Below, in pieces: positions 31,530 through 63,663 of a stretch of 64,000 bases of DNA. How positions within the stretch are numbered: position 1 is the stretch's first letter; each line of letters begins with the position of its first letter. The position numbers and the translations under genes were made by a program. Origin of the DNA: Cristatella mucedo (taxonomy: Eukaryota > Bryozoa > Phylactolaemata > Cristatellidae); contig WPIO01000059.1 of NCBI GenBank assembly GCA_009760855.2, forward strand, positions 1-64,000, in the 5' to 3' direction. The notes below the pieces were generated by a model. The model was not told the origin of the DNA and made no database searches. It saw nothing but the letters and a program-made list of their open reading frames with translations.

Positions 31530-31574
31530 ATGACGGCGAACGTAGTGGCAGCTCGCCTGCTGTGCGCGCTCGCG
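31530..31574 (+). CDS. Gene A exon 1 (signal peptide, 15 codons)
   Basis: The ATG at 31530 opens 15 codons (MTANVVAARLLCALA) and runs into GTACGT at 31575 in phase 0. It begins MTA and ends in leucine/alanine, as does gene B exon 1. The donor is weaker than GTAAGT, which is the least certain part of the model. The ATG lies in a GC-rich island about 290 bp downstream of two CACGTG boxes. Confidence 0.72.
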
Positions 31575-34500
31575 GTACGTCACTGGCCTCGCGCAGCGAA
31601 GACCCGTCGGAGCGCAGCCGCGCCGCACGCTAAGCGCCGTGCGCCTTTCCGCCTTTTGCGAGTCGGAGCTAGTTAGCCTCCCGCCGCCGCCGCCGCCGCA
31701 GCCCCGCATTCCGACTCGTTTCGCCTCTGCACTACAGGTGTGCGACGTCGCCTTCGGCTCGTTCGCGACCGTGCGCGGGCGCGTGCCCGGCCCGCGTGGC
31801 AAGCAAGAAGAAGCGCCGCCGAGCACGTGCCGCGCCGACGGCACGTGCGAGCTCGGCCAGTGCTGTCTGCATGCGAGGCGAGCCGCCGCCGCCGCGTGAG
31901 TAGCGCTCGCGAGCGGCGAACGGCTGACAGCTTGAGCTGCCGCTCTGAGCGCGCAGACGGGCGCTCAGAGCGGCGCGAAAAGCCTGTCGTCGTCGTCTAT
32001 AGCAGCGCTGGCCCCGCGCGCTCTCCTGCGCAGGAGCGCGCGCGGGGCAAGCGCTGCATCGTGCGCCCGGCTGGCGCCGCTCTCTAGTCGGCGCTCGGCG
32101 ACTTGATTCGCTGTCGTTCGCGCCCCTGACCTTCCCCTGACCTTCGCATCTCGTACCTCTACCTCTTACGCTGCCACGTACGGCAGCGACAGCGACGGAG
32201 TGAGCGGATTCGACTTATCTAATAATACTAATAATACTAATATATATATATGTGTGTGTGTGTGTGTGTGTGTGTGTGTGTGTGTGTGTGTGTGTGTGTG
32301 TGTGTGTGTGTGTGTGTGTGTGTGTGTGTGTGTGTGTGTGTATACTACAGTCGTCCCGCGCCACTTGGCGCTTCGACTTTCGCGGCTTCACGCTATCGCG
32401 GTTTTTTCAAATACAGGTGTACACCCATATTCAATAAAGAGTTGATCGAGATAGTTAAATGATACAGCACGCTCTTGGTTGTCGGAGTCAATTATACGCC
32501 CCTGTATTAAAATAAAAAGTAAAACTAATATACATGTGGTCTGTAGGTCAATGTATTCGAGCACGCCGCCCCCGCCGCATACCCTACAACGCCAGGTGCG
32601 GCCGCTCGACCACTCCTTGTGTGTGGGCAAGACATATTCAAAAAATATGGTGCGGTGAAACCAAGCCAATCAGAGCGTGCTGTTCACTGTTTTACTATCC
32701 TCGTGTAAGACCTTTATGTATGCGTGTAATTAAATGTATGATAATAATAATATGATATTGTAACATCTAATACATCTCATTTTCTCACATTCTGATTGAT
32801 TTAATCGTACATAAAAGTGTAAATTGTGACTATTGTTGTGTTATTTCCTATTCAGAAGGCTCAAATAGTGCTAAAAATCGTATTTAGAGGGTCGTGAACA
32901 GGTTTTCAATGCTTAAACTACGAAAGTATTCAATTTATAAATAGAATCCTACTTCGCGGAATTTCACTTATCGCGGTAGTCTGGAACAGATTAACCACGA
33001 TAAATGAGGGTCGACTGTGTATATAATACTAATACTATGAATATAACAAACATAATAATAAATAAATAGTAAATAATAATAATGTATAATAATGTGGTAA
33101 TATTTAATAACACTATATATATAATACGATAATAATAATAATAACAGCAGGTCGTTTGCAATGAATGCACCCTGGTGAGCCGTAATGGCTCACTAGGTAT
33201 GGCGCTTGCTTTTCACGACCTCGGCCTTGAGGTCGTGGGTTCGAATCCTGCGGTGGGCGATCCTTTATTGCTACTGCAAGCGGTGGTGATAGCCGTAAAG
33301 GCTCTTCTGTCGCTATACAAAAAGAGGCTGTTCAATCAGCTAGTATTTTTTTTAGCAGAGCCTGGTCTCTATCTGGGCGCGTTAGGACCCATTTCGCTGA
33401 GTCGTAGTAGTTCCGTAACGGAAGACAACGCTTCGCCATCTTGCCGCTTGACGGAAGTTCGCCTTCTTGCTACGCGATGCAAGTGCACCATCTTGCGGCG
33501 CGACGGACTTCCTCGCTTTAATTAGTAGAGTTGATACATTTTTATAGTGCCCTCGGAGAGCTCAATCTCTTTTTAGGCACTTTACACAGCAAGACTTCTA
33601 GCCGGTCTTGCAGCATGCACTAAATCATTTGCAGGTACGCCCGCAGTGCACAGCGGAACCAAAGATACACAGGTTTAACGCTGTGAAGTGAAAGTGGGTA
33701 GCAACGAACAGATTCGTCATTAGCTGAGACTTAGGTGGTGCACGGTCATCGCTGGCGGGTCATAGTAGAAGCGCAGCCTCTCCCAAAGCCGTCAGGTGCG
33801 ACAGCTATAGGACGAAGTGAACGCGGTCAATTTCAATGAGCAAAGGAGAACTGCGTTCGCTGGTTCGCCGGATCGCGACATGGACACGTTAGCTGACGCG
33901 ATACCGCCGCACGCGTCGCCATCTTGCGTGAAAGAAAGATATCGATCTGTTGCAGATTCGGCTCTACCGCTCTATTTTAGTGGGTTGGAAGCAGACGATT
34001 TGCCTAGAGTGAGATCTCTGTACGGTCAGTGCAGAGGTCGCGGTACAGAGGTCACTGCACGGAAGTTAATGTAATGTAATTTATCTCCGTCACTACACTG
34101 AGGTCACTATACAGACAGGTCACTGTACAGAGGTAATGTAATGTATCTCCGTCAGTAACTCCACAAAGTCATAAAGACCATGTGGGTGTTACGCAGGAGA
34201 GTTTTATATAGCGCACTCACAGCCTAAGCGGCTTTCGGTACGCATTCGGTAGCCAACAGACTTCGTCTCACGCAACAAAGAAAAAGTGGGAAGCATAGCA
34301 GAGTCAGGAGAGCAGTTGAGGTAGTGAGTAGCATAGAAGTAGCAGTTCAGGACCGCTGAAAAAGATGTGCCATAGTCGGCAGTTGGAGACTAGTTGTCGT
34401 TGCGTAAGAATTGTGGAAGCGAGTTCCACAGCCTAGGACCTGCAGAGCTAAAGCTGCTGTCGCCAACTGTCTTTAAGCGGAGGAATGGGACAGCTAATTT

Positions 34501-62700: not shown

Positions 62701-63663
62701 TGTTCCCGAGCTATAGTGATTAGGAGCGGGATACTTCGTTAATATGACACACGACATTACAAGAAGTCATCCGAAGTGATGATTAGTCAGTCGCACTTTA
62801 CGTCTCATCCTGGTCAGGTCTGGCTCCTCTTCGGCTGCGTAGTGCACACGTAGAGGACAGAGTCTAGCTGTTAGTAAGATAGTAAGGGGCGGCGTTCTTG
62901 GCTTCTTGTCGTGTTTTTCTATCGCCGCCATACTGGCTTATCGCCGCCATACTGGCTTATCGCCGCCATACTGGCTTATCGCCGCCATACTGGCTTATCG
63001 CCGCCATACTGGCTTGCTGTGCTATGTGGCTTCCGAGACTCGCTAGCCGGCTTTGAGACGCCAGCTTCACAAGCAACCGCACCACGTGGTTGCAACGTCA
63101 GCAGCGACTAATTCGCTACGTGCATTGCGTACGCGTTAAGGTCTTCGACCTTCTGGGAGCCACCGTAAGCGCTGGTAACAGCCAGTCGCTGATTACTAGA
63201 CTCTAGCGTCACGGGCGACATCCTGCGAAGCTCCCGACGCGAACGTTGCTAGGGTCATTTGCATCACCAACAAATGGCCCGTCCGCCGACCGAACCCTGA
63301 GAGTTAGCCACCGCAAGATGGCGACCCGGCCAATGCGTCGGCACGTACTGCATCAGGAGAATCGGCGTACGATCCCGTGAATTGCTTTGCCTCGAGATAA
63401 ACTCTCTGGAAGTTCATAGTTTTTAGTTCAGAGTTCATAGGTCGCTCGACTCTCGAACTGCAGCGAGAGAGCGTCTGCGAATGGCCGGCTCTGCTTCTTT
63501 TAGGAGCGGCCACGTCGTACAGGAGTGTCGACGCTTGTCAAAAGTGGACGAGTACTGTCACGATGGGCAAGAGCCGCACGACAAGTTCTGCCCTTGCGAG
63601 GGTGACCACCAATGCATTCGGTCTGGCCTTGCCCGGCCAACGTGTCGGACTCCAGCTAATTAG
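56678..63663 (+). CDS. Gene B: secreted ten-cysteine prokineticin/astakine-like protein (three exons)
   Basis: Predicted by joining 56678-56710, 61050-61186 and 63504-63663, giving 109 residues. Residues 1 to about 22 form a signal peptide (hydrophobic GLYLLTAMVAIL core). GPRGK is at 29-33. Cysteines are at 40, 46, 51, 52, 65, 75, 86, 88, 94 and 104: C-x5-C-x4-CC-x12-C-x9-C-x10-C-P-C-x5-C-x9-C. This fits the prokineticin/astakine/ixodegrin family, whose members are short secreted five-disulfide peptides. All splice sites are good: GTGAGT and GTAAGT donors, and TTTCAG and TTTTAG acceptors with pyrimidine tracts. Intron 1 is 4.34 kb and intron 2 is 2.32 kb. Exon phases (0 then 2) and the 22-residue distance from exon 2 start through GPRGK equal those of gene A, so the two are paralogs. 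There is no AVITGA amino end. The function (haemocyte cytokine, salivary or venom-type peptide) is not decided by sequence. Confidence 0.85.
57325..58065 (+). mobile_element. LINE family 2 RT carboxyl end and tail in gene B intron 1
   Basis: The + strand carries decayed VLFQGDLSLDD, LPAYKIRHFQLVQKSAARLT and FRITPLVAAP, followed by CACTTCCGACTAACGTCACA and a tail (AAAGTGCCTAGAAAGAGATT, about 58013). Several indels are present. Confidence 0.75.
58140..58335. repeat. AT-rich low-complexity stretch
   Basis: ATATATA/AATAATA sequence in gene B intron 1. A comparable stretch lies at 48650-48770. Confidence 0.85.
58625..58925 (-). mobile_element. LINE family 1 3' end in gene B intron 1
   Basis: ATGTAATGTAATGTAACGTA starts the 3' terminal repeat. 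The sequence then follows 34135-34395 closely through GCAGTAGGAGATCATTTGTC and TTGCGTAAG. It is 5' truncated just inside the RT carboxyl end. Confidence 0.82.
58926..60110. other. Gene B intron 1, unassigned
   Basis: Apart from a SINE tail remnant at 59770-59850, nothing recognisable was found. Confidence 0.45.
59770..59850 (-). mobile_element. SINE 2 tail remnant
   Basis: TTTTGCATAGCTCCCCAAAA and CTATCCAGGTACGGTACAGC resemble the SINE 2 tail on the minus strand. No tRNA head is visible. Confidence 0.4.
60117..60161. other. Hairpin, 14-bp perfect arms
   Basis: AACGATGCCAAGTC (60117-60130) pairs with GACTTGGCATCGTT (60148-60161) around a 17-nt loop, in gene B intron 1. Confidence 0.78.
60305..60343. 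repeat. (GA)n microsatellite
   Basis: About 19 GA units in gene B intron 1. Confidence 0.95.
61050..61186 (+). CDS. Gene B exon 2 (end of signal peptide, GPRGK, first four cysteines)
   Basis: The acceptor TTTCAG ends at 61049 and the donor GTAAGT begins at 61187. The exon is 137 nt, phase 0 to phase 2. It encodes 22 residues through GPRGK, then C-x5-C-x4-CC and VRRV. Read-through meets a stop at once, in the TAA of the donor. Confidence 0.85.
61187..62920. other. Gene B intron 2, unassigned
   Basis: No transposon or second gene was recognised between exon 2 and the 19-bp tandem repeat. Confidence 0.5.
62921..63015. repeat. 19-bp tandem repeat, five identical units
   Basis: ATCGCCGCCATACTGGCTT is repeated five times without change in gene B intron 2, about 490 bp before exon 3. 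Confidence 0.95.
63504..63663 (+). CDS. Gene B exon 3 (last six cysteines and stop)
   Basis: The pyrimidine tract CTCTGCTTCTTTTAG ends at 63503. The first G completes a glutamine codon (phase 2). The exon carries C-x9-C-x10-C-P-C-x5-C-x9-C and ends with TAG at 63661-63663. No AATAAA is visible in the remaining 337 bases of the window. Confidence 0.87.

Follow-up and report, generated by a model that had tools for sequence, protein, structure and literature searches.

A 64,000-nucleotide stretch of the genome of the bryozoan Cristatella mucedo (the window: positions 1-64000 of contig WPIO01000059.1, within a 572 Mb assembly of 688 contigs) carries two short three-exon genes that are probably paralogs derived from an old tandem duplication, and that would encode secreted ligands with a prokineticin domain and a shared hexapeptide, PGPRGK, ahead of it. 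Prokineticins are hormones and astakines are blood-cell growth factors, and both are built on a ten-cysteine framework. A framework of this kind is predicted for the two proteins described here.

Gene 1 is assembled from exons at 31530..31574, 31738..31895 and 37736..37892 (all +; 45, 158 and 157 nucleotides (nt), the last including the stop codon TGA), and gene 2 from exons at 56678..56710, 61050..61186 and 63504..63663 (all +; 33, 137 and 160 nt, the last including the stop codon TAA). In both models, exon 1 provides the ATG and the first residues of a putative signal peptide (15 in gene 1 and 11 in gene 2), exon 2 supplies the end of the signal peptide, PGPRGK and Cys1-Cys4, and exon 3 encodes Cys5-Cys10, while in gene 1 a run of alanine codons (GCC) lies between Cys4 and the exon 2 donor. 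The junctions 31574/31738, 31895/37736, 56710/61050 and 61186/63504, which had been proposed in an earlier note on this DNA together with the exon coordinates, proved exact. All four predicted introns are GT-AG, with the donors GTACGT and GTGAGT in gene 1 and GTGAGT and GTAAGT in gene 2; the acceptors are an AG and a pyrimidine-rich site in gene 1, and TTTCAG and TTTTAG in gene 2. The joined frames are open up to the stop and give proteins of 119 and 109 residues, respectively. A check of the junctions also bore out the proposal that the introns share positions and phases (phase 0 for intron 1 and phase 2 for intron 2 in both genes), and translation agreed with the claim that exon 2 contributes 22 residues through GPRGK in each. 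Exon 3 likewise begins with 7 residues ahead of its first cysteine in both genes. The two second exons differ in length by 21 nt (7 codons), which a MAFFT alignment placed in three gaps, one of 2 residues before Cys1 and then two of 2 and 3 residues after CC; GPRGK is separated from Cys1 by 8 residues in gene 1 and 6 in gene 2.

Exons 2 and 3 are the firmer parts of these predicted models, while the first exons are a weak point and exon 1 of gene 2 is the least certain of all. The N-termini of both proteins are hydrophobic, with a peak 10-residue mean hydrophobicity of 2.49 for gene 1 and 2.36 for gene 2, and the putative signal region of gene 1 has two extra cysteines where that of gene 2 has none. 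Of two candidates for exon 1 of gene 1 in the 10 kb upstream, the one chosen has a strong hydrophobic core, but those 10 kb consist mostly of an AG-rich array in which ATGs are scarce. Gene 2 had 20 candidate first exons, of which 16 passed a loose hydrophobicity filter, 3 of them with an internal stop; the chosen exon is not unique, a rival at 51095 is more hydrophobic (2.87 versus 2.36), and exon 2 itself also opens with an in-frame ATG. The exon at 56678..56710 was preferred because it alone among the 16 candidates has a GTGAGT donor and because it shares an MTA...A beginning with gene 1.

That the two loci are duplicates, as the earlier note had proposed, is supported by their pairwise and exon-level similarity together with their common intron phases and exon order. 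The predicted proteins are 39% identical (29/74 residues, BLASTP). Each exon was searched by tblastn against the 64 kb window, unmasked and uncorrected for composition. Exon 3 matched its counterpart in the other gene at E 1.3e-8 with the gene 1 query and 1.35e-8 with the gene 2 query (next best match 0.011), and exon 2 matched its partner at E 9.4e-5 with the gene 1 query and 1.3e-4 with the gene 2 query (next best 0.20). The exon 3 cysteine pattern, C-x9-C-x10-CPC-x5-C followed by x11-C in gene 1 and x9-C in gene 2, occurs twice in the window and not once in 200 dinucleotide shuffles together, compared with two occurrences in the window and six in the 200 shuffles for a looser form of it. 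The exon 2 pattern C-x5-C-x4-CC was found twice in the window and 25 times in the 200 shuffles, and a looser version also matched the AG-rich array once. Neither tblastn nor the cysteine patterns detected a comparable third locus in the window. From PGPRGK onward, 33, 36 and 47 of 79 codons differ at positions 1, 2 and 3, respectively, and different codons are used at 16 of the 39 identical residues. This third-position excess and the synonymous codons hint, if weakly, that selection has acted at the protein level.

The complete pattern of the pair is C-x5-C-x4-CC-x12/17-C-x9-C-x10-CPC-x5-C-x9/11-C, with x17 and x11 in gene 1 and x12 and x9 in gene 2, and the cysteine spacing claimed in the earlier note is present in both joined proteins. 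Frog prokineticin Bv8, nine of whose cysteines fall within the fragment compared, follows C-x5-C-x4-CC-x11-C-x9-C-x17-CPC-x5-C, and both proteins have all of its fixed intervals (C-x5-C-x4-CC, C-x9-C and CPC-x5-C). In a search of 177,635 distinct PDB sequences at E<=10, gene 2 had two matches, Bv8 at E 0.74 and U33-theraphotoxin-Cg1b at E 4.3, and gene 1 had one, U33-theraphotoxin-Cg1b at E 0.55. These matches argue for a prokineticin-type domain because they agree with one another, none being significant alone. A profile comparison with hhalign aligned the pair to a 68-residue Bv8 fragment with 88% probability, compared with 0.6% for reversed Bv8. The fixed spacing, the three PDB matches and the profile comparison back the earlier assignment, and support a ten-cysteine domain of the prokineticin/astakine type in both predicted proteins.

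If the genes are expressed as modeled, the old tandem duplication would have given rise to two diverged paralogs, each spliced from three exons and each directed to secretion by a signal peptide encoded in exon 1 together with the first part of exon 2. The secreted product would consist of a short exposed N-terminal segment with PGPRGK, followed by a compact prokineticin domain of the colipase fold with five disulfide bonds, for which the pairing described for this fold is C1-C4, C2-C5, C3-C7, C6-C9 and C8-C10 (PMC9918498). Both proteins would then most likely be extracellular signaling ligands in which the domain acts as a rigid scaffold and the PGPRGK segment, near the site of AVITGA in vertebrate prokineticins, is the likeliest receptor contact. 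We infer a functional N-terminal contact because AVITG is required for the activity of vertebrate PK1 (PMC8877203), because other clades have short signatures of their own, the one in ambulacrarians and Xenoturbella adjoining the domain at its N-terminal end (PMC11521371), and because PGPRGK is identical at 6/6 positions between the two genes, compared with 6/27 for the 27 residues that gene 2 has ahead of it. The retention of a single short motif ahead of the domain, in an N-terminus that has otherwise diverged, points to a possible receptor contact site; PGPRGK could also have a role in processing or in binding to the matrix. More tentatively, and on balance doubtfully, PGPRGK could be a previously unreported clade signature of prokineticin-like ligands that, in the lineage of this animal, replaces AVITGA as the N-terminal activation motif and acts through a receptor of the animal, with the pair representing two ligands of divided function. 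Among the papers covered by a literature search, none was listed for both GPRGK and prokineticin, and the listings on family members in tandem or in clusters contain no report of this gene pair.

Several results weigh against the interpretation of the pair as prokineticin-domain ligands. The cysteine framework fits a domain of this type, yet Pfam gave only sub-threshold matches: PF06607, the family that the earlier note had put forward for comparison, matched neither protein at E<=10, so its gathering cut-off was not reached, and all matches of both proteins to other models lie under the curated cut-offs. PF17556 (MIT_LIKE_ACTX), which ranked first among the Pfam models matched by gene 2, scored 12.2 bits there and 10 bits for gene 1, far under its cut-off of 27.5 bits, and Colipase_C matched gene 1 at E 0.41 (11.3 bits against a cut-off of 23.7). 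A PF06607 search of the whole assembly says nothing either way, since it gave no match to the exons of the window itself or in any of 14 control genomes. No database match is significant singly, the best E values being 0.55 and 0.74 in PDB and 0.29 in Pfam. A PDB search with a profile of the pair was no stronger than the single-protein searches. Its top match was a fucose-binding lectin (E 0.42), narrowly followed by Bv8 (E 0.44), but no stretch of the lectin passed on its own. Searches of about 5.8 billion predicted proteins, with the gene 2 query and with the two-protein alignment (168 candidates, none at E<=10), yielded no homologue, in a collection that is unlikely to hold multi-exon genes. 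Neither protein has a tryptophan, so a counterpart of Trp24, the receptor tryptophan of vertebrate prokineticins (PMC8877203), is absent, and the loop between Cys6 and CPC has 10 residues compared with 17 in Bv8. Finally, the selection signal is weak, and the splicing of both genes is a prediction from the DNA.

A different role for the same fold has to be weighed alongside. The pair could encode secreted effectors of saliva, venom or gut, such as protease inhibitors or peptides of the MIT-like atracotoxin type, because the same cysteine framework occurs in spider venom-gland peptides (PMC3303826) and in a spider member of the MIT-like atracotoxin group that inhibits trypsin (PMC9918498). The match of both proteins to U33-theraphotoxin-Cg1b, the rank of PF17556 among the Pfam models and the absence of an N-terminal AVIT motif are all in keeping with such peptides. 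We nevertheless regard this as unlikely, given the PF17556 scores and the conserved PGPRGK ahead of the domain, which suggests a conserved N-terminal contact. It is more doubtful still that the genes belong to another colipase-fold family, as a dickkopf-like CRD-2 protein (a Wnt antagonist) or a colipase-like protein. The CPC tripeptide and the x4 before CC fit Bv8, whereas dickkopfs have CxC without the proline and colipases have x3 before CC. The Colipase_C match of gene 1 favors a colipase, and the CRD-2 of dickkopfs, which is found in protostomes too, likewise adopts a colipase fold with ten conserved cysteines (PMC6425005). A dickkopf is unlikely because no CRD-1 precedes the ten-cysteine domain in either gene, with only the 8 and 6 residues between GPRGK and Cys1 in its place, though Hydra dkk1/2/4 also occur without CRD-1 (PMC6425005).

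Two further explanations concern the integrity of the genes themselves. The gene models could be a chance assembly of unrelated open stretches joined by splice-like sites, as the exons are short, their joining is predicted from the genomic letters and gene 2 has other candidates for its first exon; this is scarcely credible for two copies that agree in exon order, intron phases and residues, with an exon 3 match at E 1.3e-8 and an exon 3 pattern that is absent from all 200 shuffles. Alternatively, one copy could be in decay, gene 1 being the candidate on account of the alanine run before its exon 2 donor and a retroelement in its second intron. This is very improbable, as the frame of gene 1 is open and all ten domain cysteines and all of its splice sites are intact. 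Two paralogous genes for prokineticin-domain ligands are the preferred reading.

The surroundings of the pair include retroelements and repeats, in a window with a GC content of 50% and an observed/expected CpG ratio of 0.97. The element in intron 2 of gene 1 is a retroelement of the long interspersed nuclear element (LINE) type at 34390..37395 (-), whose two open reading frames feature RVT_1 (E 7e-21) and Exo_endo_phos (E 1.1e-8) domains and do not contribute to the gene product. Among the matches listed for its reverse transcriptase, the closest, with 94% identity over 75% of it, comes from a metagenome contig; of 8000 candidates scored, 7977 were within E 0.001, and the organism-named ones among the 120 listed are fishes with 47-51% identity. 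A second reverse-transcriptase fragment lies between the two genes at 54002-54565 (-; RVT_1, E 8.9e-14). The AG-rich array upstream of gene 1 spans ~7 kb (22632-29953) and features many long artificial open frames, and a 236-codon open frame at 37296-38006 (-), antisense to exon 3 of gene 1, has no Pfam match at E<=10. Five perfect copies of the 19-bp unit TATCGCCGCCATACTGGCT lie at 62920-63015, just upstream of exon 3 of gene 2, and a GC-rich minisatellite with 32/63-bp units occupies 45956-46306. A Pfam scan of 16 open reading frames of the window (6 plus 10 chosen among 40 of 78) gave only retroelement domains above cut-off, in three of the frames, and further exons may exist outside the 16 scanned. 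Scans of the window for tRNA and Rfam families returned nothing.

Genes of this structure are easily missed: the three exons are short and lie scattered over 6-7 kb, curated Pfam models do not detect them and, here, an intron holds a retroelement. The pair adds to a known kind, because multi-copy prokineticin-like peptides have been described, with five in oyster (PMC8398477) and 35 transcripts in Laevipilina (PMC6425005). The new element would be the PGPRGK signature, if it proves to be conserved.

Compared with known systems, the pair is close in plan to the vertebrate prokineticins (Bv8, PK1 and PK2; the AVIT family, PF06607), with which it shares the ten cysteines, the fixed intervals of Bv8 and the order of a likely signal peptide, a short conserved motif and the domain. 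Vertebrate PK1 is also a three-exon gene, with its ten cysteines in exons 2 and 3 (PMC8877203). The differences are that AVITGA and tryptophan are absent from both proteins here, and that exon 1 of PK1 includes AVITG (PMC8877203), whereas in this pair the likely signal peptide continues beyond exon 1.

Arthropod astakines similarly have a ten-cysteine prokineticin domain without AVIT. In both genes described here, the exon that holds the CC stops shortly downstream of it, and a similar exon is reportedly described for astakines by Ericsson and Soderhall in 2018. Two motifs, RYS and YPN, characterize the arthropod astakines; both proteins here are devoid of RYS and even of YP, and the data do not identify them as astakines in the narrow sense used for arthropods. 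The existence of two signature motifs in the domain of arthropod astakines is described in PMC11521371. The tick astakine drives haemocyte proliferation (PMC10923820), and an ATP synthase subunit has been proposed for astakine (PMC8398477).

MIT-like atracotoxins (PF17556) resemble the pair in a weak Pfam match over the cysteine domain, with a score far under the cut-off. Among lophotrochozoans, which we compared by published description, the likeness lies in the multi-copy precursors of oyster and Laevipilina; Cragi-prokineticins 1-5 of oyster have ten cysteines without AVITGA, and four of the five have a signal peptide (PMC8398477). A parallel to PGPRGK itself is provided by the prokineticins of Xenoturbella and ambulacrarians, in which a clade-specific short motif also adjoins the domain on its N-terminal side, in that case K/R-RFP-K/R (PMC11521371).

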